DNA of 24,032 bases from a virus, in the IMG/VR virus record IMGVR_UViG_3300017744_000147, positions 1 to 24,032 of that record. One strand, written 5' to 3'. The position numbers and the translations under genes are program-made. Positions 1 to 20,941 of the stretch are shown here, piece after piece. The notes under the pieces were generated by a model. The model worked only from the letters and a program-made list of their open reading frames with translations, was not told the origin of the DNA and did no database searches. How positions within the stretch are numbered: position 1 is the stretch's first letter; every line of letters begins with the position of its first letter.

Positions 1-1
1 C

Positions 2-91
2 GGACCAGGCGGACCAGGCGGACCAGGCGGACCAGGCGGACCAGGCGGACCAGGCGGACCAGGCGGACCAGGTGGACCAGGTGGACCAGGT
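2..91. repeat. 9-bp tandem repeat, 10 copies (GGACCAGGY)
   Basis: Seven copies of GGACCAGGC are followed by three copies of GGACCAGGT, with no spacers, starting at the left edge. In forward frame 2 the unit reads Gly-Pro-Gly and stays open into the gene at 170. Frame 1 reads Arg-Thr-Arg and ends at a TAG at 91-93. Frame 3 reads Asp-Gln-Ala and ends at a TAG at 129-131. The reverse strand can read Gly-Pro-Pro, a collagen-like triplet. It could be the tail of a repeat-coding gene cut by the window edge or a non-coding repeat; the sequence does not decide. A NotI-like GCGGCCGC follows at 93-100. Confidence 0.95.
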
Positions 92-103
92 AGCGGCCGC
101 CCC

Positions 104-132
104 TTGCACCCCCCTTGCCACCGTGGTATAGT
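104..132 (+). promoter_or_regulatory. Sigma70-type promoter P1
   Basis: TTGCAC at 104-109 and TATAGT at 127-132 are separated by exactly 17 bp, close to the bacterial housekeeping consensus. The predicted transcription start is about 138-140. About 30 bp of this promoter recur almost unchanged at 569-597, including the second TTGCCACCG inside the spacer. It would drive the gene at 170 rightward. Confidence 0.8.
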
Positions 133-138
133 GATGGA

Positions 139-153
139 GCCGGATCCCCCGGC
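139..153 (+). promoter_or_regulatory. 5'-terminal leader hairpin of P1 transcript
   Basis: GCCGG (139-143), loop ATCCC, CCGGC (149-153) gives a perfect 5-bp all-GC stem that begins at the predicted +1 of P1. The same stem with a different loop occurs at the same place after P2 (604-618), so the stem is kept while the loop changes. 5'-end hairpins are known to protect mRNA from decay in bacteria and in T7. That role here is inference. Confidence 0.6.
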
Positions 154-169
154 CTACAGTGGAGCCCCC

Positions 170-511
170 ATGAAAAAGTATAACCACCAGTTCCCGCCGA
201 TTACCGTCGTGGACGGGCGCGATTGCGCCGAACCTGTCGAGGAACTCGACATCAGCCTTACCTATGACAAGGGCGGCTGGACCGGCAGGCGGGGTTGGAG
301 CCTCCACGTCCAGCCGCTTTCCCGCGTGCGTCCGGCCCCGGGCGTCGTGATTAACCGGTACGCCCCGCGTGAGGGGGTCCGCCGGTTTGTTCACCCGGTC
401 AACCGGGCAAGCGCTAAGGGGCTCCGGGACGCGATTGCGGCTGCCGAAGAGGCGCTTCCCTCCCTGGTGGATTTCTGCTTTGGGCACAACCCTCACTTGT
501 CCCGGGCGTAG
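170..511 (+). CDS. Small phage protein of unknown function
   Basis: A 113-residue protein beginning MKKYNHQF. The frame is open further left (an earlier ATG lies at 134), but 170 is chosen because GGAG at 161-164 sits 5 bases upstream and because P1 and its leader hairpin lie between 104 and 153. The centre (DISLTYDKGGW, RGWSLHVQPL) resembles, from memory, small proteins of phage accessory regions that share a 'YDKGG ... RGYYLHVQP' pattern and have no assigned function. There is no signal peptide, membrane segment or catalytic motif. It has its own promoter and terminator (530-557), so it is a self-contained, moron-like unit. It is probably an early or accessory gene. The identity as a real gene is firm; the function is unknown. 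Confidence 0.8.
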   Translation: MKKYNHQFPPITVVDGRDCAEPVEELDISLTYDKGGWTGRRGWSLHVQPLSRVRPAPGVVINRYAPREGVRRFVHPVNRASAKGLRDAIAAAEEALPSLVDFCFGHNPHLSRA

Positions 512-529
512 CCTTACTTCGTCTCGTTG

Positions 530-557
530 CCCCCGTCGGTTCGCCCGGCGGGGGTTT
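530..557 (+). terminator. Intrinsic terminator T1
   Basis: A 10-bp stem (530-539 with 545-554, one T:G wobble), loop TTCGC, then TTT. It lies 19 bp after the stop at 509-511. The stem-loop is base-for-base identical to the one at 1094-1118. The T tract is short, so efficiency is uncertain. Confidence 0.75.
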
Positions 558-568
558 GCGCACTACCC

Positions 569-597
569 TTGCACCTCCCTTGCCACCGCGGTATAGC
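569..597 (+). promoter_or_regulatory. Sigma70-type promoter P2
   Basis: TTGCAC at 569-574, 17-bp spacer, TATAGC at 592-597. It is a near copy of P1, differing at two spacer positions and the last -10 base. It lies 11 bp beyond terminator T1, so it starts an independent unit containing the genes at 639 and 863. Confidence 0.8.
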
Positions 598-603
598 AAT
601 GAG

Positions 604-618
604 GCCGGATGAACCGGC
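604..618 (+). promoter_or_regulatory. 5'-terminal leader hairpin of P2 transcript
   Basis: GCCGG (604-608), loop ATGAA, CCGGC (614-618). It starts 7 bases after the -10 box, as in P1. The stem is identical to the P1 leader stem and only the loop differs, which is the pattern expected of a selected structure. Its function is inferred. Confidence 0.6.
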
Positions 619-638
619 GCATAGCAAGTGGAGCTACT

Positions 639-866
639 ATGCCGACCCTGACCCCTGCCTACGGGCGCGACTACAAGAGTAAGGCGGCCGTCGAGGCCGA
701 CTTCAAGGCGGGCAAGGACTTCGTCCTGAACGATATGTCCTCCCCCCACCATGGGCGCTACGTCAACGTCCAGGACGCCCGCGGCGCCGGGTGGGCGACC
801 GTCAACCTCCGGTACAAGCGCTTGACCCGCGTGGCCGTGGTCAAGGTCCCGGGGGGTGGCAAGTGA
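639..866 (+). CDS. Small phage protein of unknown function
   Basis: A 75-residue protein beginning MPTLTPAYGRDY. Start 639 is preferred to an in-frame ATG at 609 because GGAG at 630-633 lies 5 bases upstream and 609 falls inside the leader hairpin loop. The patterns TPAYGRDYKSK, FKAGKDFV, SSPHHGRYVN and VNLRYKRLT match, from memory, a widespread short phage protein family of unknown function. It is basic overall, with no membrane segment. It is the first gene of the P2 unit and its stop overlaps the start of the next gene (GTGA, 863-866), so translation is probably coupled. Confidence 0.85.
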   Translation: MPTLTPAYGRDYKSKAAVEADFKAGKDFVLNDMSSPHHGRYVNVQDARGAGWATVNLRYKRLTRVAVVKVPGGGK

Positions 867-1072
867 GCCTGACTCTTCGGAGCTACTCAATCGTGGGGGG
901 CTACCCCTTGTTCCATGTCACCCGGGACAATGCCGCGGTCTGTACCGCTTGCGCGGTGCGTCGCTTGGAAGACGACTGTGAGCACGACAAGCCCGTCCAG
1001 ACCGCTCCCAACTGGGAAGATCGATACCTGACGTGCGAGGATTGCAGTAGCAGGATCCCCTCCGCGTACTGA
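863..1072 (+). CDS. Small Cys-rich (putative zinc-ribbon) phage protein
   Basis: A 69-residue protein starting at GTG 863, which overlaps the previous stop. The frame is open further left but only inside the upstream gene. CxxC pairs at residues 27-30 and 58-61 plus Cys39 and nearby His suggest a small metal-binding fold. The opening (RSYSIVGGYPLF) and the end (CEDCSSRIPSAY) match, from memory, small phage proteins of the same accessory neighbourhoods that end 'CxxCgxxIeSAY'. The function is not known. An AAGG is followed by a G-run just upstream and could serve as the ribosome site. The terminator at 1094 closes this two-gene unit. Confidence 0.8.
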   Translation: MSLTLRSYSIVGGYPLFHVTRDNAAVCTACAVRRLEDDCEHDKPVQTAPNWEDRYLTCEDCSSRIPSAY

Positions 1073-1093
1073 CCCCGCGTCGCCTCACCTCTG

Positions 1094-1121
1094 CCCCCGT
1101 CGGTTCGCCCGGCGGGGGTTT
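1094..1121 (+). terminator. Intrinsic terminator T2
   Basis: A 10-bp stem (1094-1103 with 1109-1118), loop TTCGC, then TTT. It lies 21 bp after the stop of the Cys-rich gene. It is identical in stem and loop to T1 at 530-554, showing that the terminator was duplicated along with the promoter module. Confidence 0.75.
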
Positions 1122-1160
1122 CGCGCGTCCGGGCCCCACCGCCGGACCCCGCTGTCCACC

Positions 1161-1214
1161 GCCGGACTTTCACCCCCCGCCGGACTTTCACCCCCCGCCG
1201 GACTTTCACCCCCC
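1161..1214. repeat. 18-bp tandem repeat, 3 perfect copies
   Basis: The unit GCCGGACTTTCACCCCCC occurs at 1161-1178, 1179-1196 and 1197-1214, with partial copies at 1141-1150 and 1215-1222. No convincing gene covers it. A reverse frame would read Gly-Gly-Glu-Ser-Pro-Ala repeats but lacks a credible start. It sits between a rightward terminator and a leftward operon end. Confidence 0.9.
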
Positions 1215-1247
1215 GCCGGACTGGGGAGGGGGGAGAGTCGCCAGGCC

Positions 1248-1403
1248 GAGCTCCGCCAGGTCGCCAGGTCGCCAGGCCGCCGAGCTCCGCCAGGTCGCCA
1301 GGTCGCCAGGCGGTCGAGCTCCGCCAGGCGGTCGAGCTCCGCCAGGCGGTCGAGCTCCGCCAGGTCGAGCTCCGCCAGGTCGAGCTCCGCCAGGTCGCCA
1401 GGC
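1248..1403. repeat. Nested GAGCTC-centred repeat array
   Basis: GAGCTC occurs seven times, at 1248, 1282, 1316, 1334, 1352, 1367 and 1382, giving spacings of 34, 34, 18, 18, 15 and 15 bp. Each core is followed by CGCCAGG, and the longer units contain extra GTCGCCAG copies. This looks like stepwise slippage or recombination that trimmed a 34-bp unit to 18 and then 15 bp. Reverse-frame reading gives Leu-Ala-Glu-Leu-Asp repeats, but there is no ribosome site. With the 18-bp array it fills the gene-free stretch 1122-1416. Confidence 0.85.
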
Positions 1404-1416
1404 CCCAACGCAGAAG

Positions 1417-1440
1417 CCCCCCTCCCGAGGGGGAGGGGGG
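1417..1440 (-). terminator. Hairpin terminator of the leftward small-gene operon
   Basis: A perfect 10-bp stem (1417-1426 with 1431-1440) with a 4-base loop, 22 bp beyond the stop of the leftward gene ending at 1463. On the reverse strand the stem is followed by CTTCTGCG, so the T tract is poor. Its position fits a terminator or an RNA 3'-end stabiliser. Confidence 0.6.
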
Positions 1441-1462
1441 CAGGGTGAGGGGCGGGGCCGGG

Positions 1463-1915
1463 TCAGTCGGTGAGATCGCGGACCGGGACACCTGCAGATC
1501 GGAGGTCATCGGCGATTGCGGCGAGCGTGTCGGCGCTCCAATCCTGCCCATCAATCCGGCGCTGAATCTGCCGGAGGGCGCGCGACTTGTTGAGGAGCTC
1601 CCGCGTCCGCCGGTTGTCGATCTCGATCTGGCGGGCCCTCCCTTCGGCGAGGCCGGTGAGGAAGGCGCGCATCCCCGCCAGGAGCTCCGCCTTGGTTCCC
1701 CGGGGGAGGATCGTGCGCTCGCCTCCTCCGTCGTTAACCAGCTGGGCGAGGGCGACGCCTCCATAGGCGTAGTCGAGGACGAACGTCCCGACGTTGCAGA
1801 TCTGGGTCCCGTCCTCCTGGCGGGTCCACCCTTCGAGCTTCTGTCCAAGGACCTGGTTGATAAGCTCGACCTGGCGGACCAGGTCTTTCTTGGTTGCGCG
1901 GTGCCGGTAGGCCAT
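1463..1915 (-). CDS. Phage protein with 'AYGG...NxGGG' family N-terminus, function unknown
   Basis: A 150-residue protein beginning MAYRHRATKKDL, with GGAG about 8 bases before the ATG on the reverse strand. Residues about 8-92 (KKDLVRQVELINQVLG, GTFVLDYAYGGVAL, VNDGGG, TKAELLAGMRAFLTGL) match, from memory, a very common small phage protein family with the pattern 'N-L-L-N ... Y-x-L-d-x-A-Y-G-G ... N-x-G-G-G ... T-K-r-E-l'. That family has no established function. The C-terminal third is helical and Arg-rich, with acidic residues at the end. It is the last gene of the leftward operon, separated from the upstream gene by a two-hairpin module. Confidence 0.85.
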   Translation of the reverse strand: MAYRHRATKKDLVRQVELINQVLGQKLEGWTRQEDGTQICNVGTFVLDYAYGGVALAQLVNDGGGERTILPRGTKAELLAGMRAFLTGLAEGRARQIEIDNRRTRELLNKSRALRQIQRRIDGQDWSADTLAAIADDLRSAGVPVRDLTD

Positions 1916-1952
1916 CTGTGTTCTCCGTTGTTGGTTGGTTGAGGCAGCGCCT

Positions 1953-2014
1953 CCGTCGCAGCTCCGAGCTTGAAGCGGCGACGGTGGCGCCCCTCCCCGA
2001 AGGGAGGGAGCGCC
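1953..2014 (-). promoter_or_regulatory. Intergenic two-hairpin module, copy 1
   Basis: Two stems lie between leftward genes. Hairpin one (1986-2014) has 12 base pairs with one bulge and loop CGAA on the forward strand, that is C(UUCG)G in the leftward transcript, an exceptionally stable RNA tetraloop. Hairpin two (1953-1984) pairs CCGTCGC with GCGACGG around a longer loop. The whole segment is repeated with changes at 2486-2546. Possible roles are partial termination, RNA processing or protection of 3' ends. Confidence 0.7.
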
Positions 2015-2022
2015 GGGGGGGC

Positions 2023-2265
2023 TCAGCCCTTGAGGGGGCGAACCAGGCTGCGGAGCTGCTCAACGGAGCTGCGGGAGTAGTCGAGCCACTCCCCCCGGGC
2101 GTCGCTCCAGACCTGGGTTGCGATCTGGATTCCGACGCCGCGGTCGTAGAACGACCCCGCCCGATCGATGCGGAACTTGAGGCCTCGCGCGCCACGGGTC
2201 GAGATCCCGAACTCAGCGGGGAAGGTGGCCACGATGGTATCGATCTCGTTGCGGAACTTGTTCAT
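2023..2265 (-). CDS. Small phage protein of unknown function
   Basis: An 80-residue protein beginning MNKFRNEIDTIVATF. The frame is open far upstream to 2421, but 2265 is chosen because AGGAGA lies a few bases before this ATG and because the upstream part overlaps a hairpin and the neighbouring gene. The pattern 'F-R-I-D-R-A ... V-G-I-Q-I-A-T-Q-V-W ... E-W-L-D-Y-S-R' resembles, from memory, other small unannotated phage proteins with a 'W-L-D-f-S' motif. It has a mixed alpha/beta appearance and is basic, with no membrane segment. It is the third gene in the order of transcription of the leftward operon. Function unknown. Confidence 0.8.
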   Translation of the reverse strand: MNKFRNEIDTIVATFPAEFGISTRGARGLKFRIDRAGSFYDRGVGIQIATQVWSDARGEWLDYSRSSVEQLRSLVRPLKG

Positions 2266-2282
2266 GTCGTCTCTCCTGGGTT

Positions 2283-2302
2283 GGCCCCCCCGAAGGGGGG
2301 CC
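2283..2302 (-). promoter_or_regulatory. Intergenic UUCG hairpin
   Basis: A perfect 8-bp all-GC stem (2283-2290 with 2295-2302). The leftward transcript has loop UUCG closed by C-G. It sits between two operon genes, 18 bases before the start of the downstream ATG. It matches the loop design of the two larger intergenic modules. Confidence 0.7.
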
Positions 2303-2314
2303 GGGTTGGTTGGT

Positions 2315-2446
2315 TCAGAGGGCCTGAAGGGCCCGGAAGATGAGCTCGCCACCGAGGTCGGTGATGCGAGCCCCAAAGGCCATGGCCGCCAGGGCCACAA
2401 AGCACGTGATCGAGAATCCAAGAAGCGTTTCGTTCAGGTTGTCCAT
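2315..2446 (-). CDS. Very small single-pass membrane protein
   Basis: A 43-residue protein beginning MDNLNETLLGFS. Start 2446 is chosen over the open frame to 2524 because GTGGAGAA lies just upstream and the longer form runs into hairpin sequence. Residues about 8-28 form one hydrophobic helix (LLGFSITCFVALAAMAFG), with an acidic N-terminus and a second short hydrophobic stretch at the end. It is too short for a known holin family to be assigned; a holin-like, membrane-anchored regulator or simple membrane peptide are options. It lies in the middle of the leftward operon with the same leader design (CCAACCAACC, then GTGGAGAA) as its neighbours, which supports it being a real gene. Confidence 0.7.
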   Translation of the reverse strand: MDNLNETLLGFSITCFVALAAMAFGARITDLGGELIFRALQAL

Positions 2447-2485
2447 GTGTTCTCCACTTGGTTGGTTGGTTGAGGCGGGGTGCCT

Positions 2486-2546
2486 CCGTCGCAGCTCCAG
2501 GGGCCGAAGCGGCGACGGTGGCACCCCTCCCCGAAGGGAGGGGGCC
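2486..2546 (-). promoter_or_regulatory. Intergenic two-hairpin module, copy 2
   Basis: This is a second copy of the 1953-2014 module. The UUCG hairpin spans 2520-2546 (11 base pairs with one bulge) and the CCGTCGC/GCGACGG hairpin spans 2486-2518. Sequence outside the stems and in the larger loop has diverged, while both stems are kept. A CCAACCAACC stretch follows on the transcribed strand before the next ribosome site. Confidence 0.7.
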
Positions 2547-2553
2547 GGGGGAC

Positions 2554-3048
2554 TCAGTCCATCTCGGCGAGGATGAACGCGGTAATGCCGGCGGCGACGT
2601 CCTCGCGGGTCATCTCGTGACCGTGGGCGATCGGGCCTTCAGCGACGTGAGGCGAATCGCTCAGGATCGAGGCGATGAGCCGGATCGCCTGGTCAAGGTC
2701 GACGGTGACAGTCGCGTGGTCCACGTGATCGGTGACGTTTTCGATCTCCACTTCGACCACCTTCTCGATCTCGATCGACTGTCCTTCGACCTCGATCTCG
2801 ATCGTCGCCATGACCTCGATCGTGGCCCACCGCTGGCCGTAGCCGAGCTCTTCAAGATCCCCGCGGATCTGGCCGCTCTTCTGGAGGAGGGCCGCGGGGA
2901 GCGTTGGGGGCTCGACCGCCTCCAGCTCCTGAAGGGAGCCCGCGGTGAACTGAAGGGCGGTGAACGCCCGGGCCAGTGTGGCCCGAGCCTCCGCCAGGGC
3001 GTCGATGCTTTGAAGGAGGGTTGCAATCTGGTCTTCGCGCTTGCTCAT
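2554..3048 (-). CDS. Acidic protein with alternating Ile/Glu beta segment, function unknown
   Basis: A 164-residue protein beginning MSKREDQIATLLQS, with TGGAGAAA just before the ATG at 3048. The first 65 residues look helical. Residues about 75-120 alternate hydrophobic and acidic residues (TIEVMATIEIEVEG, IEIEKVVEVEIENV, TVTVDLD), which predicts several beta strands. The underlying DNA is itself repetitive in GATCTCGATCG-like words (about 2745-2825). The C-terminus is acidic. I do not recognise the family. It is the first gene after the putative leftward promoter at about 3112, so it heads the operon. Confidence 0.8.
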   Translation of the reverse strand: MSKREDQIATLLQSIDALAEARATLARAFTALQFTAGSLQELEAVEPPTLPAALLQKSGQIRGDLEELGYGQRWATIEVMATIEIEVEGQSIEIEKVVEVEIENVTDHVDHATVTVDLDQAIRLIASILSDSPHVAEGPIAHGHEMTREDVAAGITAFILAEMD

Positions 3049-5675: not shown

Positions 5676-6183
5676 GGCTCTTTCCCGCGAGAGCGGCAGG
5701 GCGCGGAGCGGTCGAGTTGTTGCTCGGGCTGATGAGCTCGTTGGCGCTCTTTTTCGTCATCTCATCGCCCCTCGTACCCATTCGGGTCGCCCGGTCGATT
5801 TCTGACCGCACATTCGCCAGGGCCTGATTGTCGATGCCCTTCGCGCGTCGCGCGACCTCGACCTTGTGCTTGTGCTCCTCGATGCGCGTCAGCTTCTGCG
5901 TGTCCGATTCACGGGTCACGTTGATCTCGGCGCCCGGATAGCGCTGGCGGATTACCGCGCAGGCCCGGTCGTACTTCTCCTTCGTGTCGCACATCCCCAG
6001 GACGCCCATGTCGATCGGCGTGAACGAGCCGTATCCTCCGCCTCGGATGCCGATGTTGACCCCGTAGCGGTAGTCGCGCTTCAAGGTCTCTCCGCACTCT
6101 GGGCACGGGGGGTACTGCCCGACCTTGAAAATCAGGGTGTCCTCTTCGTATCCACAGTCACACATGAAGTCTGCAACAGGCAT
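5662..6183 (-). CDS. FmdB-like zinc-ribbon protein
   Basis: A 173-residue protein beginning MPVADFMCDCGYEED. Cys8/Cys10 and Cys27/Cys30 (CDCG ... CPECG) form a short zinc ribbon resembling the putative regulatory FmdB-type ribbon, which usually starts 'MP-x-Y-x-Y-x-C'. Residues 40-85 contain a Gly-rich stretch (GIRGGGYGSFTP), and the rest is basic and helical (EEHKHKVEVARRAKG). Its start overlaps the portal stop (TGATG at 6185-6181), giving coupled translation. Similar small zinc-ribbon proteins occur next to portal genes in other environmental podoviruses, as far as I recall, but no function is established. A virion or assembly role is inference. Confidence 0.7.
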   Translation of the reverse strand: MPVADFMCDCGYEEDTLIFKVGQYPPCPECGETLKRDYRYGVNIGIRGGGYGSFTPIDMGVLGMCDTKEKYDRACAVIRQRYPGAEINVTRESDTQKLTRIEEHKHKVEVARRAKGIDNQALANVRSEIDRATRMGTRGDEMTKKSANELISPSNNSTAPRPAALAGKSRVLA

Positions 6184-7946
6184 CAGCCCTCCTGGGGTGC
6201 GCTACCCGCCATCAGCAGGGCAGCAATCTCGGGCGGTAGGTTCTGTGCCGCTCCACCCTCTGCAGCGGCAGCCTCTGCTGCGAGGGCCTCTTCAGCCATC
6301 GCTTCATCCTGCGCCATCGCCTCTGCGGCCAGGGCCGGCGCGCCTGCAGCAGCCCCGCCCAAGGAGCGCTGCTGCTCAGCCATGATGGCCTGCTCTTGCT
6401 GCTGCATCGCGGCCTGCTCTTCTTGCTGGATCTGCTCTTGGGTCTTCACCATGCGGGCGGGGAACCCAAGCCCAGCTACGACCTGTTCAGTCAGCGTCTG
6501 GAAGTCGATGTTGGGGTTCTGCGACAGGAACGGCAGCATCTGGATGATGGCCTCGACCATGACCGCAGGATTCTTGCGGACCGGGTTGTAGGACACCATC
6601 TTGAAGTCCATGTCCACGTCTTGCAGTGTCTGGAACGACACGGCCTGCCACTGCTGCGACCCAGAGATGCGGACCATCTTCTCGCCCCTCATGTACTTCC
6701 GCATCAGGTAGAAGGCCTTGCGCCCAACGTCCTCAATGGCGTCGTTGAGGTGCCCCTCACGGGTCGCAAGCCGCGTCCGCATCTGGGCATCGATGATTGC
6801 CATCTCCGTCGCTGTGCGGGCTCCTGCGACCTGTCCTCGCGCCGCCTCAGCCAGCGCCGAGATGAATGCGGCGTCGTTCTCCTGCCGGTCCACAAACGCC
6901 ACCACGCTCGCCGGAGTGTCCGGCGTCGGCAGCGGGAAGAACAGCGTGTTGAGCGTCCGAAGTGCCTCGCTGTTCTCAGGGCGGATTCCGACAAAGGAGC
7001 CCGTTGTGCCAGCCACGGCCTTGTTCAGGTCTTCTTCGGTGATTCGGCCGGAATCGTAGAGGATGCGTGGGATCTGCAGGTACGCAATCTCCTTGAGGTG
7101 CGAGAGCAGGTCATTGACCGTCTCCTGCTGGTTGAGCACCAGCTGAACCTCGGAGAGCCCTGTGCAGTCAATGCCTGACTGGTTGAGGCTGAACATCGAG
7201 TAGGGCACGTAGTCAATCTTGTCCTCAAAGACGACGGCGTTGGCCTGCTTGACGTAGTGCTGAACGATCCCGCTATCGACGTTGTAGTACTCGTAGACCG
7301 TCACCCACTGGAAGGCGTCTCGCACCGTCTGGACGTCCCCCTTCTGGGTCTCGGACACCAGCCACGAAGGATACCGGTCAGGGCGGATGTCAGCGTTCTG
7401 GGGGATCTGGTAGACGCCCGAGGCGACCCGGCCCTTGAACTCCTCGTAGGAGATGACCGTCACCTCAATCCAGTAGCTGATGTCATCGACGTCGCGAACC
7501 GTCAGGTCGAAGAACAGCCGCGAGGGGTCCACCGTCTTGATGACCGGCCTGTCCTTCTCCGAGTTCCATCCTGTCTTGAAGATGCCGCGCTTGCACAGAA
7601 CCGAGTCAATCAAGGCGGTTGCCGACCGACGACGCATCTTGTTTTCGTCGAAAACAAACTCCACGAGGCCGTTTACGGCCATCATCGCCTCTTGTGAGCG
7701 CGGGTTGCGCGGCACGCAAGCGACCTGAGGGTTGGGCCCCAGCAGGCTGCTGACTGCAGTGTCAGCGATGGCGTAGATCAAGTTCTTTGAGCAGAGCAGG
7801 AGGCGGTCTACCCCCTCAGACTCAGCTCTCTTCACAGAGTAGAAGTCGCCCCGGTAGAACCGTCGAGCCTTGTCGAAGTCCTTCTTCTCGTTGCGCTTGT
7901 AGTACCGCTCATGGCGATCAATCAGATTGGAAAGCTTCGGGGGCAT
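6183..7946 (-). CDS. Portal protein (head-tail connector)
   Basis: A 587-residue protein that would form the dodecameric ring through which DNA is packaged and ejected. ATG 7946 is preferred to an in-frame TTG at 7949 because GAGG lies 6 bases upstream. Diagnostic stretches are LIDRHERYYKRNEKKD near the start, SSLLGPNPQV, FKTGW, DPSRLFFDL, and the long helix-rich core ending QLVLNQQETVNDLLSHLKEI and PRILYD. This is the usual organisation of podovirus portals (P22-like). The C-terminal 80 residues are Gln/Ala/Glu-rich, as expected for a barrel or tail. The length fits the 500-700 range for podoviruses. Both ends overlap neighbours by TGATG, linking its translation to the upstream small gene and the downstream zinc-ribbon gene. 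Confidence 0.88.
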   Translation of the reverse strand: MPPKLSNLIDRHERYYKRNEKKDFDKARRFYRGDFYSVKRAESEGVDRLLLCSKNLIYAIADTAVSSLLGPNPQVACVPRNPRSQEAMMAVNGLVEFVFDENKMRRRSATALIDSVLCKRGIFKTGWNSEKDRPVIKTVDPSRLFFDLTVRDVDDISYWIEVTVISYEEFKGRVASGVYQIPQNADIRPDRYPSWLVSETQKGDVQTVRDAFQWVTVYEYYNVDSGIVQHYVKQANAVVFEDKIDYVPYSMFSLNQSGIDCTGLSEVQLVLNQQETVNDLLSHLKEIAYLQIPRILYDSGRITEEDLNKAVAGTTGSFVGIRPENSEALRTLNTLFFPLPTPDTPASVVAFVDRQENDAAFISALAEAARGQVAGARTATEMAIIDAQMRTRLATREGHLNDAIEDVGRKAFYLMRKYMRGEKMVRISGSQQWQAVSFQTLQDVDMDFKMVSYNPVRKNPAVMVEAIIQMLPFLSQNPNIDFQTLTEQVVAGLGFPARMVKTQEQIQQEEQAAMQQQEQAIMAEQQRSLGGAAAGAPALAAEAMAQDEAMAEEALAAEAAAAEGGAAQNLPPEIAALLMAGSAPQEG

Positions 7947-8446
7947 CAACGGCCTCGAGAGTAGTTTGGCGACTTCGATCCCTTCTGCGGTGATCGGCGC
8001 TGGTTGGAGCCGCCCCTATCGATAAGGGCGCCTTCTGCTCGCAGGGTTTCCTTTTCCTCGTCCGTAAGGAGCTCTGACAAGGATGGCGGGAGCTTCTCCA
8101 TAGGGCCCTGATGCAGCGCAAGGAATCGAGCCGATGTGATTGGCTTGCTCGCATCGCTCAACGCGCTCAGGGCATTGTAGGACTCAATCATGGCCGCCCC
8201 AACAGGGCCTCCGACCAGCCTGCCCAGAGCTCTGGCTCCAGCGGCTCTTGCCCCGGCTCCAGCCAAAGCCTTGGCCACACTCTTCTTGGCAGTCCTTTGC
8301 GCGGCCTCCGTGGCGGCGGCTTTGCCAAGGCCCTGTACTGCAGATGTCTGCGCCGTCCTCTCCTTGTAGTCTTCTGCCCTCGCCTGCTGCATGCGCTGCC
8401 GCAGCATCTCGTCGATGTCTTCGCGCTGAGCCATGACTACATCCAT
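7946..8446 (-). CDS. Ala-rich small phage protein between terminase and portal
   Basis: A 166-residue protein. Two starts are possible: ATG 8446, which overlaps the terminase stop, or ATG 8434, which has a weak GGAT 6 bases upstream. The layout is a charged helix (REDIDEMLRQRMQQARAED), a basic Ala-rich segment (residues 40-85, many AxxA/GxxxA steps that could be helical or membrane-associated), an ordered SLSELLTDEEKETL helix, and a basic tail ending YSRGR. The position between terminase and portal is where head-assembly accessory proteins occur. No family is recognised. Confidence 0.7.
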   Translation of the reverse strand: MDVVMAQREDIDEMLRQRMQQARAEDYKERTAQTSAVQGLGKAAATEAAQRTAKKSVAKALAGAGARAAGARALGRLVGGPVGAAMIESYNALSALSDASKPITSARFLALHQGPMEKLPPSLSELLTDEEKETLRAEGALIDRGGSNQRRSPQKGSKSPNYSRGR

Positions 8447-10092
8447 TCACGAGGTACAGGGCGGGCAAACTCACGCTGCTTGCCCTTGCGAAGCTTGTCG
8501 AGGTCCCCGATGGTAACGCGGCCAGGCACGTATTCGCGAGCCTCTTCTCGCAGACCTGTCGGGGTGAAGTTGCGGCGGCTCAACACATCAGCAGCCATGA
8601 CCGCAGTTCGCGCCCGGTCAAAGTGGTGCGTGCTGCCGTCGAGGCCCTTCACCCGCCTCTTGCGAGACCCGTCATAGTTGAGGAGCTGGTGGAGGAGCCC
8701 GCGACTTCGCAACAGGAGGTCTTGATCGCGAAGCATCTTCACAAGCTTGGCCTCAGCCTCTTGGATGCGCTTTTCAGTCGCATACCAACCAGGGTGGTTG
8801 CGGTTGGTCCACAGCAGCCTCCGGGTCCCCGACTCCTTCAGCAGCGTGATGCACGCGGTCGCGTTGGACTCCACCACCAGCAAAGCATTGTTGTACCGCT
8901 TCTGGATTCGCAGCAGCCGGCGAGCGAATCGATCAGGGGCCTCTCGGTCCTCCCAGAACGCCACCTCGCGCCGGTTGATGGCATCAAAGACAGTGACGGC
9001 GCTTTTGTCGCCAGAGCCTCCAAAGCCAGCAGGGTCAGCGGTAATCAAGTACGACCCATTCGGGTGTGGAGATTCAATCTCGCGCACGCCTGCGGGCCCA
9101 ATCTCTGGATCTACAATGGCTCGATCAAGCAGCGGCTGCAGGAGCTCCGAAGGCATGACCGGAGCCAGGCTACCAATCCAACCATCATAGGCGTTTGACG
9201 GGTACTTCGACGAGAAGAGGCGGGGGTCTCCAGCCATCTCCGTCTCCAGGGAGAGCCGGCGAAAGGCCAGGTGGTTCATGCTCATCCCAGGATGCTGCGC
9301 CAGGTATTCCCGCTCCTGGTTCGTGGGCTCAAACCCCGAGGTGAAATCCACCTGACAGCTGTCGTCGTGCCACCACTCGAGGAAGAGCGGATGGAATCGG
9401 CCCCGACCCTCCAGGGCGTTGCGCCACATGGTTTCATGGTGTGAGCCTGCCCGGCCAGGGGTGGACTCCAGGATGACTCGAGCGTTCGGGCGCTTGTTGA
9501 GAGTTGGGAAGATGTTGATGGCGGCCTTCTTCTGCCACTGAGCCTCACCAAACTCCGTGATAATCAGGCGGTCCACCGAGCGGCCAATGGCAGGAGACCG
9601 GCCACCTGCGGTCAGGATCTTGATGGACCCGCCATGCTCAAAGTGAATCTGGGTGGTGCCGGCCTTCCGTCCCTTCGCCAGAGGCATCTGCACATCTTTG
9701 GGAAGCCGCTTGTAGGCGTACAAGATGCGCTCAAAGATGTCTTCAGCGGTGTCCTGGCGCTCTGCAATGAGCAGCCCCTTGACTCCCGACAGATACATGC
9801 AGTCGCGAAGCAGAAGCATCACGCTGATAGTCGTGATCTTGGCCTGCCTGAACTTGTTCACAAGCAGCCAACGGTTCTGTGAAAAAGCCCTCAGGACCTT
9901 TCGCTGAGTCAGGGTCGGCGTCAGATAGCCGCTCGACTCGTCCTCTTTCACGATCTGGCACATGGACACAAAGGCGTCTGGGGTGCTGAACAGCGCCCGA
10001 ACCTTGACCATGTTGAGGCCGTCTGCTTCATGGAGGTTGGCGCCGTTGGGCAACAGCGCAGGACGGCGCGAGTCGGGGTTCTGTGCTACCAT
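8437..10092 (-). CDS. terL: Terminase large subunit
   Basis: A 551-residue DNA-packaging motor with ATPase and nuclease halves. ATPase: deviant Walker A at about 80-88 (KFRQAKITT, of the K-x-R-Q-x-x-x-T-T type), Walker B at about 175-180 (RLIITE, Glu180 catalytic, Thr instead of the usual Asp), and coupling motif ESTPGRAG at 209-216. The conserved PLFLEWW sits at about 235-241. RuvC-like nuclease: Asp353 in ITADPAG, Asp362 in GDKSA, Glu408 in VVESN, and Asp492/Asp502 in HHFDRARTAVMAAD. The length is normal. It is the first gene of the leftward block and diverges from the basic-protein genes at 10138. A small terminase subunit is not recognised in the window. Confidence 0.93.
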   Translation of the reverse strand: MVAQNPDSRRPALLPNGANLHEADGLNMVKVRALFSTPDAFVSMCQIVKEDESSGYLTPTLTQRKVLRAFSQNRWLLVNKFRQAKITTISVMLLLRDCMYLSGVKGLLIAERQDTAEDIFERILYAYKRLPKDVQMPLAKGRKAGTTQIHFEHGGSIKILTAGGRSPAIGRSVDRLIITEFGEAQWQKKAAINIFPTLNKRPNARVILESTPGRAGSHHETMWRNALEGRGRFHPLFLEWWHDDSCQVDFTSGFEPTNQEREYLAQHPGMSMNHLAFRRLSLETEMAGDPRLFSSKYPSNAYDGWIGSLAPVMPSELLQPLLDRAIVDPEIGPAGVREIESPHPNGSYLITADPAGFGGSGDKSAVTVFDAINRREVAFWEDREAPDRFARRLLRIQKRYNNALLVVESNATACITLLKESGTRRLLWTNRNHPGWYATEKRIQEAEAKLVKMLRDQDLLLRSRGLLHQLLNYDGSRKRRVKGLDGSTHHFDRARTAVMAADVLSRRNFTPTGLREEAREYVPGRVTIGDLDKLRKGKQREFARPVPREWM

Positions 10093-10118: not shown

Positions 10119-10148
10119 TCCATACAAGAGGTGCGTTGTGCCCGACAA
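10119..10148 (-). promoter_or_regulatory. Possible leftward promoter for the terminase block
   Basis: On the reverse strand TTGTCG (10148-10143), 18-bp spacer, TATGGA (10124-10119). It would give a leader of about 20 bases before ATG 10092, but no good ribosome site is visible there. A second, weaker extended -10 (TGA-TACCGT) lies closer to the start. It overlaps the start of the rightward gene at 10138. Low confidence. Confidence 0.3.
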
Positions 10149-10371
10149 GAAGGACTTCATCAGCAAGGCCATTAAGCGCCCTGGTGCGCTGCGAAAGGCG
10201 ATGGGCGTCAAGAAGGGCGAGAAGATCCCCAAAGACGAGATTGATGCCAAGCAAAAGGCCTTGCAGGAGGAGGCGAAGGGCGACAAGAAGCTCCCTCCAG
10301 CCAAGCGACGCCTCCTGCGACAGCTCACCTTGGCCAAGACCTTGGACAAGATTCGCAACAAGAACAAGTAG
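10138..10371 (+). CDS. Small Lys/Arg-rich phage protein
   Basis: A 77-residue protein starting at GTG 10138 after AGAGG. An upstream open frame exists but overlaps the terminase start. The N-terminus (KKDFISKAIKRPGALRKAMGV) carries the 'I-K-x-P-G-A-L' pattern found, from memory, in many small basic phage proteins near packaging and capsid genes. The remainder is highly charged (KKGEKIPKDEIDAKQKAL, PPAKRRLLRQLTLAKTL). It is strongly basic, with no Cys and no membrane helix. It is the first of four consecutive basic genes. Binding to DNA or to the capsid interior is a reasonable guess only. Confidence 0.75.
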   Translation: MPDKKDFISKAIKRPGALRKAMGVKKGEKIPKDEIDAKQKALQEEAKGDKKLPPAKRRLLRQLTLAKTLDKIRNKNK

Positions 10372-10373
10372 CT

Positions 10374-10799
10374 ATGGGCAAGTACGACCACATCAACATG
10401 AAGCCGTCGCAGTCCACTGCCTCTGCTGCGAAGCGGGGCTTGGAGCTGCGTCGCAAGCAGCCGAAGAGCGGCAAGGCGGGACTCAGCGCGAAGCAGGCAA
10501 AGGCTCAGGGCATCGGCTCAGGCGTTCAGCGAGCGTCGAATATGGCCAACCGCAAGACCTTGAGCTCGGAGACCTGGAAGAGGGTCAAGGCTTACCATGA
10601 TCGCCACGCCAAGAATCGCAAGCTTGATCCTGGAAAGAAGCCCCATGAGGACAAGGGTTACGTCGCCTCATTGCTCTGGGGTGGCGACGCAGGCTACTCT
10701 CAGGCCAAGAAAATCGTTCGGCAGATGGAAGCGGCAGACAAGAAGAGCAAGGGCGGGCGCCGGAAGATGCTTCGGTCTGTCGTGAAGAGCAAGAGGTAG
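10374..10799 (+). CDS. Basic conserved phage protein with 'LSAKQAKAQGIGSG' motif
   Basis: A 141-residue protein starting 2 bases after the previous stop, with no separate ribosome site, so translation is probably coupled. Residues 36-60 (GLSAKQAKAQGIGSGVQRAS, then NMANR), about 61-85 (LSSETWKRVKAYHDRH) and 93-114 (DKGYVASLLWGGDAGYSQA) form motifs that I recall from unannotated phage proteins ('...VAWLLWGGDAG...'). I cannot name the family. It is very basic at both ends (MLRSVVKSKR). The central 'WGGDAG' block suggests a folded domain rather than a disordered basic peptide. Its placement before the capsid operon suggests a virion or DNA-binding role. Confidence 0.8.
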   Translation: MGKYDHINMKPSQSTASAAKRGLELRRKQPKSGKAGLSAKQAKAQGIGSGVQRASNMANRKTLSSETWKRVKAYHDRHAKNRKLDPGKKPHEDKGYVASLLWGGDAGYSQAKKIVRQMEAADKKSKGGRRKMLRSVVKSKR

Positions 10800-10801
10800 C
10801 C

Positions 10802-11011
10802 ATGGCCAAGTGCCCCCAGGACAAAGCCAAGGACAAGAAGAAGCTTGAGCGGTACAAGAAGACGTACACCAAGCCTGGTGTCCGGCTCAAGATTTTCAAG
10901 CGCATCCTGGCTCGCAACACGCATGGGACGAAGTCTTGCCAGTGGTCCGCGCGCAAGGCCCAGCTCCTGGCCAAGGAGTACAAGGATGCGGGCGGGGGGT
11001 TCAAGAGCTGA
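10802..11011 (+). CDS. Small basic protein, N-terminal half of a DUF5872-like pair
   Basis: A 69-residue protein. ATG 10802 lies 2 bases after the previous stop, with GAGG just upstream. The C-terminal part (CQWSARKAQLLAKEYKDAGG, residues 46-65) matches, from memory, the 'WSARKAQLvakkYK-x-x-GGGY' signature of the uncharacterised family I know as DUF5872, which occurs in phages and large eukaryotic viruses. The N-terminus is Lys-rich. Its stop overlaps the start of the next gene (TGATG, 11009-11013), which carries the other half of the fused version. Function unknown. Confidence 0.75.
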   Translation: MAKCPQDKAKDKKKLERYKKTYTKPGVRLKIFKRILARNTHGTKSCQWSARKAQLLAKEYKDAGGGFKS

Positions 11012-11256
11012 TGGCCCTGACCAAGGAACAGCGCAGCCTGGTCAAGTGGACCAAGCAGAAGTGGCGGACCCGCTCGGGCAAGAAGTCGTCCGAGACAGGA
11101 GAGGTCTACGCCCCTGAGAAGGTCATCAAGGGCCTCATGAAGAGCCGCAAGGGCAAGAAGAAGCTTGCGGAAGCTACGCGCAAGAAGCGCGAGGCAACCA
11201 AGAAGGGCAAGCAGTTCGCCAAGCATGGGCTGCATAAGGGCAAGAAGTACAAGTAG
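11011..11256 (+). CDS. Small basic protein, C-terminal half of a DUF5872-like pair
   Basis: An 81-residue protein with its ATG overlapping the previous stop. The pattern SLVKWTKQKWRTRSGKKSSE, then TGEVYAPEKVIKGL and KGKQFAKHGL matches, from memory, the second half of proteins in which 'W-S-A-R-K-A-Q-L' and 'W-T-K-q-k-W-R-T-k-S-G-K' lie on one chain. Here they are two coupled genes. About one third of residues are Lys or Arg. No enzymatic motif is seen. The family recall is moderately certain; the coding call is firm. Confidence 0.75.
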   Translation: MALTKEQRSLVKWTKQKWRTRSGKKSSETGEVYAPEKVIKGLMKSRKGKKKLAEATRKKREATKKGKQFAKHGLHKGKKYK

Positions 11257-11298
11257 GCCTGCATGCTAAATGCAGCAGCCCATAATAAAGGAACTTAC

Positions 11299-11613
11299 AT
11301 GTCTCTCCTTGATTTCTACACAAAGCAGACCTTGGCGATGGATGCGCCCCAGACTGCTGGGGGCAAGGGCACCACCGGTCCGGTCAGCTCTTCTGCCGAT
11401 GAGCTCATCTACTCAAACATCGGTGACATCGTTGGCACGATGTACCGTCGCCGAAAAGATCGCAAGGCGGTCAAGGATCAGTACGCTGCCGCCAATCAGG
11501 GAGTGCCACCGACCAGGGCTCAGCTGAATGAGGCCGTGGCTGCCCGCGACAAGTTGAGGCCTCAGGCTGCCCTTCCTTCCCCATCGTCCGCTGAGGACAG
11601 CAAGAAGGAATAG
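11299..11613 (+). CDS. Small phage protein upstream of the capsid gene
   Basis: A 104-residue protein beginning MSLLDFYTKQTL. Start 11299 is chosen over an in-frame ATG at 11263 because AAAGGAAC lies just upstream and 11263 falls in a small inverted repeat (CTGCAT-GCTAA-ATGCAG, 11259-11275). A weak extended -10-like TGC-TAAATG lies in the same repeat. The pattern is a short hydrophobic start, a Gly/Ser/Thr linker, an ordered helix (ADELIYSNIGDIVGTMYRRRKDRKAVKDQYAA) and a Pro/Ser/Lys tail. The neighbourhood (just before the capsid promoter) suggests a minor head or assembly role. No family is recognised. Confidence 0.75.
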   Translation: MSLLDFYTKQTLAMDAPQTAGGKGTTGPVSSSADELIYSNIGDIVGTMYRRRKDRKAVKDQYAAANQGVPPTRAQLNEAVAARDKLRPQAALPSPSSAEDSKKE

Positions 11614-11779: not shown

Positions 11780-12853
11780 ATGGCTATCTCTACCGAAGTC
11801 CTGAACACGACCTTCGCAGACCTGCGTGGTCCCCTCGTCAACTCCTTCGTCCGCTCCAACGAGCTGTTTGAGGCCCTTGACAGCAAGGCCCGCATGCCGA
11901 TGGAGGGCGGCTCCCTGATCGAGCGCTCCTTCACTGGCGGCGCCCCCGCTCGCGGTGTCGGCATCTATGTCGGCGACGAGCTCCTCAACATGACCCGTCG
12001 TCAGCAGATCAAGAAGTTCCAGGTGGAGCCCCACCGGATCGTGGTCGCGGTCAACATCCCGAAGAAGGAGCTCCTGATGAGCAGTGGCAAGCTTGCCATC
12101 ATGCGCCTCATCGAGGAGTACCCGAAGACCGTGATGGACGGTGTCAAGGCCGACATCAACAAGTACTTCCTGATCGGCGTGTCTCGCGGCATCGTCTTCC
12201 AGACTTCTGAGCTTCGTGGCTTCCTGAGCCTCAACGGTCAGGTCTCCACCGGCATCGGTACTGGCGTCACCAACGGTCTTCTTGACTTTGCGACTCCGGC
12301 CAACCAGACGGACACCGTTCAGGGTGTGGCAAAGAGCAACAGCTACTTCCACTTCAACCAGTTCGGTGACATGGCTGGTACCGCCTTCGACATCTCGGTC
12401 CTCCGCAAGTCGTACCGCGAGTGTGCTCACTACGCAGGCGGCATGGGCAAGGGTCCGGACCTGGTCTACATGGACCAGGACACCTACACCCAGTTTGAGG
12501 AGAACCAGGCCAACAACTTCCGGATCAACGTCAACACGGTGCAGGATGGTGTGGACAACAACAGCAACACCATTGAGCTGAGCCTCGGCCTGGCCAAGGT
12601 GTACTCGTCCATCGATCTCGATACGGCCGACTTCACCAACCCCGGCGGCGGCGCTCCACGTCCCGATCAGGGCGTCACCTACATCCTGAACACGGACTAT
12701 CTGGAGATGCCGACGATGGAGGCTCCCACCATGTCTCAGTTCACTGAGCGCGTTGGTGACCAGGATGTCGTGACCGCGATCTTCTCGATGCAGGCCAACC
12801 TCATCTCGACCAAGCTCCCCGCACACGGCTGTGTTGCTGGCGGCAAGGGCTGA
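11780..12853 (+). CDS. Major capsid protein
   Basis: A 357-residue protein expected to form the icosahedral shell with an HK97-type fold. GGAG lies 7 bases before the ATG. Features typical of phage capsid proteins are an N-terminal helix (LNTTFADLRGPLVNSFVRSN), a positively charged loop region (SLIERSFTGGAP), the ordered core with TRRQQIKKFQVEPHRIVVAV, the helix KTVMDGVKADINKYF, and an end rich in beta structure (GVTYILNTDYLEM ... VGDQDVVTAIFSMQANL). The length matches podovirus capsid proteins. It has a dedicated promoter and long leader, and is followed by a strong hairpin and a decoration-like gene, which supports high expression. No delta domain or protease gene was seen. Confidence 0.87.
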   Translation: MAISTEVLNTTFADLRGPLVNSFVRSNELFEALDSKARMPMEGGSLIERSFTGGAPARGVGIYVGDELLNMTRRQQIKKFQVEPHRIVVAVNIPKKELLMSSGKLAIMRLIEEYPKTVMDGVKADINKYFLIGVSRGIVFQTSELRGFLSLNGQVSTGIGTGVTNGLLDFATPANQTDTVQGVAKSNSYFHFNQFGDMAGTAFDISVLRKSYRECAHYAGGMGKGPDLVYMDQDTYTQFEENQANNFRINVNTVQDGVDNNSNTIELSLGLAKVYSSIDLDTADFTNPGGGAPRPDQGVTYILNTDYLEMPTMEAPTMSQFTERVGDQDVVTAIFSMQANLISTKLPAHGCVAGGKG

Positions 12854-20350: not shown

Positions 20351-20941
20351 ATGCCACTGCCACTTCTTGGATCTGCAGCAATCGTTGCCGGCACTGGTCT
20401 GGCCGCCGGGGCTATCGGTCGCGGCATCAAGGGCCGCCAGGCGCGCAAGATGCGCGAGAGGTTTGAGAAGACTACGGCAGGCGCAGCAGAGAAGAGGGCC
20501 CTGGAACAGGCAGCAGCCCGTCAGATCTCTGGCGACTACGGATCTGGTGCTGCAAAGATGCGCCAAGACGCGAGCCGTGCCGCAGAGGGCGGTCGTGAAG
20601 AAGCGCGGATGGCCCGGCGAGAGATGCTTGCAAACGTCGTCAAGGGTGGCGGCTTCGGCCGAAGCGGGGCCGCTACGGACGCCTTGACTGGCATCAGCCA
20701 GGCTCAGATGGCCAATCAGGCGCAGGCTGGTCGGACGGCAGCAGACATCTCTCAGCGTACCGCAGAGGCGACCCAGAGAATGGATAGGGGTGTCTTGGAG
20801 GCAGGTGTAGCCGCAGAACGCATGTACGAGAAGCGGTTGCAGAAGATGAGGCAGAGGGGCGCAGAAATGGGCCGACAGATTGGAACCTCGTTGGCTTCAG
20901 GCGCCATCGCGGGCCCAGCAGAGACTGCTGCAACCGCTTGA
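20351..20941 (+). CDS. Putative internal virion (DNA ejection) protein
   Basis: A 196-residue protein, GGAG overlapping the upstream stop. Residues 4-27 are a Gly/Ala-rich hydrophobic helix (LLGSAAIVAGTGLAAGAIG), followed by a long Ala/Gln/Arg-rich helical body (about 30-180). This layout, and the length, match small podovirus ejection proteins such as T7 gp14 and P22 gp7, which leave the capsid and insert into the cell envelope to help form a DNA channel. Neighbouring genes for large helical virion proteins support this. A generic coiled-coil virion protein is the alternative. Confidence 0.65.
   Translation: MPLPLLGSAAIVAGTGLAAGAIGRGIKGRQARKMRERFEKTTAGAAEKRALEQAAARQISGDYGSGAAKMRQDASRAAEGGREEARMARREMLANVVKGGGFGRSGAATDALTGISQAQMANQAQAGRTAADISQRTAEATQRMDRGVLEAGVAAERMYEKRLQKMRQRGAEMGRQIGTSLASGAIAGPAETAATA

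Follow-up and report, generated by a model that had tools for sequence, protein, structure and literature searches.

Why does a phage genome hold four small, strongly basic proteins between its terminase and its capsid gene? Double-stranded DNA phages are usually thought to package their DNA with polyamines and cations, not with dedicated histone-like proteins. The window, which is the whole 24,032-nucleotide stretch of viral DNA that we analysed, contains four adjacent plus-strand open reading frames (genes A, B, C, and D, 10138–11256) between the divergent terminase gene TerL and the capsid gene. An earlier note on this DNA had described such a linked set of small basic genes. The reading frames, the charges, and the TerL and capsid positions bore this out, and the lengths (77, 141, 69, and 81 aa) and motifs quoted there were correct.

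Genomic setting of the four genes

Gene A (10138–10371, plus strand; 77 aa, pI 10.4; phrog_15706) has a GTG start; an ATG at 10030 opens a longer frame, which however overlaps TerL antisense. It is followed on the same strand by gene B (10374–10799; 141 aa, pI 10.9; phrog_2859), gene C (10802–11011; 69 aa, pI 10.3; phrog_17747), and gene D (11011–11256; 81 aa, pI 10.8; phrog_14910). The stop codon of C and the start codon of D overlap as TGATG. Net charges per 100 aa were +19.5, +19.1, +23.2, and +28.4 for A, B, C, and D, respectively, at pI values of 10.3–10.9, whereas 16 other credible window genes examined fell between −13.8 and +6.1. Comparison with the related contig L003 revealed substitutions at codon positions in the order third > first > second in all four genes, and each protein has homologues conserved at the protein level. 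Thus, A–D are real, selected protein genes.

The rightward block opened by A–D also holds the podovirus-type major capsid protein (MCP; 11780–12853, plus strand; NCBIfam NF033394, E = 5.5e-29; phrog_9953), a weak cement-like candidate, and an internal-virion-like protein. It diverges from TerL (8437–10092, minus strand; phrog_2, E = 7.8e-22) and from the portal gene (6183–7949, minus strand). A search around the cluster gave no promoter-like match, and its terminator-like matches did not exceed chance level. The 116-aa reading frame ahead of the MCP (11263–11613) probably starts at 11299, where AGGA precedes an ATG, which gives about 104 aa. Another basic protein (196 aa, pI 11.0) is encoded late in the structural block, at 20351–20941. 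The G+C content is 65–70% in positions 1–3000 and 57–62% over most of the remaining window.

In Pfam, A–D had no match to HU/IHF, eukaryotic-type histones, or other known DNA-packing families, and searches with their profiles against the sequences of solved structures gave no match.

Gene A and the VP2 family

Residues 6–75 of gene A matched the Pfam family of fusellovirus VP2 (PF25632; E = 1.8e-4, 22.3 bits), which was also matched by half of its phage relatives. Because 22.3 bits lies below the curated cutoff of 27 bits, we classify A as a VP2 homologue and not as a PF25632 member. A profile built from the phage members only was then compared with 2000 composition-preserving shuffles of VP2. 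SSV1 VP2 scored 18.4 bits, against 10.9 bits for the best shuffled sequence. ORF9 of the Thermus virus IN93 scored 19.9 bits, rising to 30.1 bits in the second profile round. Both proteins ranked above all other SSV1 and IN93 reading frames and above B, C, and D. Alignment of the gene A family with VP2 by hhalign resulted in E = 2.3e-5. The similarity covers the whole length and goes beyond composition.

SSV1 VP2 and IN93 ORF9 align with A end to end, from the FISKAIKRPG start to the KRRLLRQLTLAKTLDKIR end, and they are equal to it in size and charge. ORF9 is located just upstream of structural genes, as A is. Their viruses are spindle-shaped or tailless, whereas A belongs to a tailed phage. 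Within the window, A lies beside its C–D partners. In one relative of A (L126), a single open frame continues into recombination endonuclease VII, with a possible internal GTG start there. The archaeal SSV1 VP2 is a known virion DNA-binding protein; one review contains both an account in which it is dispensable and an account in which it is essential (PMC9608457). This homology makes DNA binding by A likely. As a VP2-type protein, A would most likely bind packaged DNA through its charge and be carried in the virion.

The C–D pair and its cellular relatives

Judged from sequence, C and D are the N-terminal and C-terminal halves of a single DUF5872-like protein. D was present in 10 of the 10 loci fetched with C, and C in 77 of the 80 fetched with D, where the three exceptions lie at or near contig starts. 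C was upstream of D in all 92 distinct same-strand pairs, and in about half of the cases the two genes were no more than 25 bp apart. Natural C–D fusions of 131 aa occur in many viruses (86 viral loci with fusions as the query) and align to positions 7–110 of the 116 in DUF5872 (PF19197), with an E value of 5.6e-5 but a score that falls short of the curated cutoff. Window C or D alone did not match PF19197 in Pfam; therefore, they are treated as homologues of DUF5872 halves and not as members. Relative to DUF5872, the window carries the two halves as separate genes, without the SAP- or H1-like tail. The annotation of the algal giant virus CpV-BQ1 likewise includes DUF5872 (PMC12085832).

The midpoint-rooted tree of the joined C–D cores separated the split from the fused forms (support 0.95), which under this rooting suggests a single fission or fusion. 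Sixty-four of the 68 genome-derived sequences were found in one clade (support 0.97). In three contigs of the same phage group (L045, L102, and L103), C–D follow the portal gene rather than sitting beside the MCP, and the pair thus moves as a unit. Several phages have it near lysis, tail, or replication genes and not near the capsid gene; in HTVC034P, it adjoins a DnaA-like replication gene. Searching the PDB with the fold of the C–D fusion yielded nothing usable and no match to a solved DNA-binding fold. A stretch of a 1022-aa phage ParB/sulfiredoxin protein (BFVD A0A6J5PCY7) matches part of the C–D model (48 columns, 54% identity).

A genome scan with the C–D fusion gave 265 relatives, and the details that follow rest on the best 80 of them (L300–L379). 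These come mainly from Methylobacterium, Roseomonas, Aureimonas, Sphingomonas, and Pseudomonadaceae, Stutzerimonas among the sources, and each of the 80 encodes C and D as a single reading frame. A motif rule assigned a Rho_N/SAP-like C-terminus to 60 of the 80, and about five of 11 others also look so; nine carry an Ala/Lys/Pro-rich, histone-H1-like tail with a net charge of +22 to +67. The best Pfam Rho_N match (L323, E = 3.9e-5) scored just below the cutoff. Against DUF5872, L323 (27.6 bits) and L326 (29.4 bits) exceeded the curated cutoff of 27.5 bits. The weak matches of one tail in the PDB were the Ku autoantigen and Rho, and NCBIfam has no family for the three chromosomal fused proteins tested. 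None of the 80 loci contained a TerL, MCP, or portal of the window type. The sampled neighbours were housekeeping genes (AmpE, a chemotaxis receptor, Ada, and COX2), which indicates ordinary chromosomal sites.

The bacterial proteins with H1-like or Rho_N/SAP tails (Methylobacterium, Roseomonas, and Stutzerimonas) have the full C–D region in common with the window; unlike window C and D, they are cellular, fused, and tailed. They provide the strongest new argument for C–D as a putative nucleic-acid-binding unit, and this homology and domain company make DNA binding by C–D likely. C and D would function as a pair, and the segments WSARKAQ...YK..GGG of C and W..W.T.SGK of D probably mediate their assembly on DNA. 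Before packaging or while it proceeds, the pair would coat the phage DNA or make it more compact, and the chromosomal relatives probably do likewise on host DNA.

The tailed chromosomal proteins would also suit a purely intracellular function, in which A and C–D cover the DNA of the phage or of the host in the infected cell and are not packaged. Nuclease protection, a replication compartment, or host chromosome remodelling would then be their roles. The DnaA-like neighbour in HTVC034P is consistent with this, as is the B homologue gp148 of PaBG, which has topoisomerase genes as neighbours and carries a DNA-binding annotation. We consider this explanation unlikely, given that A–D head the capsid operon in the window, VP2 is a virion protein, and B is fused to head proteins elsewhere. 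The suggestion in the earlier note that the set modifies host chromatin gained no specific support.

It is very improbable that the proteins bind RNA or associate with ribosomes and thereby modulate the translation of the host. A small, Lys-rich composition fits ribosomal proteins too, Rho_N domains can bind RNA, and one C member matched Ribosomal_L30 (E = 0.05). However, the L30 match is at chance level, and the VP2 homology and the head-protein fusions point to DNA and the capsid.

Gene B, gene combinations, and a proposed role in packaging

Some viruses encode B as a free-standing protein, whereas in others it is the N-terminal region of a larger one. The module was found fused to Peptidase_S78, the XkdF protease, Phage_capsid_4, and Mu_F, and weakly to DUF2213; in named phages, B is listed under capsid, minor-head, and head-morphogenesis annotations. 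The head proteins of phrog_2859 that carry the B module at the N-terminus (Vibrio phages 1.122.A and 1.118.A, and Limnohabitans DC31) are encoded near the capsid gene, as B is in the window, and S-CBS4 gp019 is a stand-alone B. Compared with these head proteins, window B is stand-alone, more basic, and clustered with A, C, and D. No protease or capsid domain accompanies it in the window, where its 141 aa constitute the module alone. The AlphaFold model of B is all-helical (pLDDT 80), and the fold search against the PDB returned no usable match and no solved DNA-binding fold. One further fusion joins the module to a TUDOR-like domain (L020:5893–6825; PF11160, E = 1.2e-15).

Through these fusions, head association of B is likely. 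B would deliver its basic helical module to the site where heads are assembled, as the fusions to prohead proteases and capsid proteins do elsewhere, and it probably links DNA-binding proteins or DNA to the inner prohead. These fusions, including those to Mu_F-like proteins, together with the acidic nature of the MCP, the portal, and several neighbours, could also be read as signs of head-assembly factors that bind the acidic inner prohead, portal, or scaffold, DNA binding being incidental. Since this would leave both the A–VP2 homology and the chromosomal C–D proteins with DNA-binding-type tails unexplained, we regard it as improbable.

The genes combine in several ways. A, C, and D, and with them a fifth basic family (E), recur together in unrelated viruses. 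The orders observed for A with C–D were CAD, CDA, A-CD, and ABCD, and C–D were present in 26 of the 96 A-fetched loci (loci overlap between scans); in some loci, A occurs without C–D or C–D without A. Among 25 B-fetched loci, A, C, or D was found in only two, both of the window's clade, and in none of the other 23. The full ABCD set turned up only in 3300038530_001810, 3300021197_001468, and the window itself. The small basic family E (IRFGxQG...SFKARHAKNIAKGKMSAAYWADKVKW) is a commoner partner of A and C–D than B. It adjoins C–D in 62 of 80 D-fetched loci (for example, L103:5490–5813; also L045, L079, L114, and others). C–D and E commonly adjoin in aquatic phage contigs, including Pelagibacter and Roseobacter phages, where they are annotated only as hypothetical. 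C and D are carried by the Pelagibacter phages HTVC033P and HTVC034P and by the Puniceispirillum phage HMO-2011, and A is carried by HTVC027P.

E was lacking in the window and in both relatives that carry B. Of six contigs that share the TerL/portal or MCP type of the window, three have B but no E, and the other three have E but no B. B lies directly upstream of C, at the place of E in L045 and L103. This suggests that B took E's place, as read from six related contigs, some of which are fragments. We do not claim homology between B and E; theirs was the best of ten family pairs, but hhalign gave E = 0.003 and a probability of 10% over 22 columns.

These patterns bear on the idea of a fixed four-protein system, which did not hold: B lacks A, C, and D outside the clade, A and C–D each occur alone, and E is the more usual partner. 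The earlier note had counted a lack of co-occurrence elsewhere among the things that would refute its idea; A, C, and D did co-occur elsewhere, B only within this phage clade. The set had also been called undescribed, which holds only in part: the VP2 family and DUF5872 are already in databases and VP2 homologues have been reported in bacterial viruses.

Taken as a whole, the explanation that we favour, with moderate confidence, is that A–D are late nucleic-acid-binding head proteins that open the capsid operon. Judging by the VP2 homology of A, the relatives of C–D with DNA-binding-type tails, and the capsid-protein module in B, these proteins most likely serve to coat or compact the phage DNA as it is packaged. 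Packaging of all four proteins in the virion is plausible on the same kind of sequence evidence. Against the explanation, the window proteins do not reach the curated PF25632 and DUF5872 cutoffs, B lacked A, C, and D in the 23 other B loci, C–D lie away from the capsid gene in several phages, the accounts of whether SSV1 needs VP2 conflict, and neither of the predicted folds (B and the C–D fusion) matched a solved DNA-binding fold. A literature search for virion proteomes of phages bearing C–D or A yielded no evidence; the main text on the virion proteins of PaBG, where only 14 Coomassie-visible proteins were identified, does not mention gp148. The virion DNA-condensing role proposed in the earlier note is accordingly supported in part, by homology: A to VP2, C–D to proteins with nucleic-acid-binding or H1-like tails, and B as a head module.

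More tentatively, and with the balance leaning against it, the mix-and-match basic families (A, the split DUF5872-like C–D, B, and E) may make up a kind of phage chromatin: several proteins would jointly coat and condense the phage DNA, both inside the infected cell and in the virion, and giant viruses and bacterial chromosomes would share part of this set. Through the link to VP2-type and to bacterial SAP- and H1-tailed proteins, the hypothetical C–D and E proteins would become a class of viral DNA-coating proteins that is open to direct tests.
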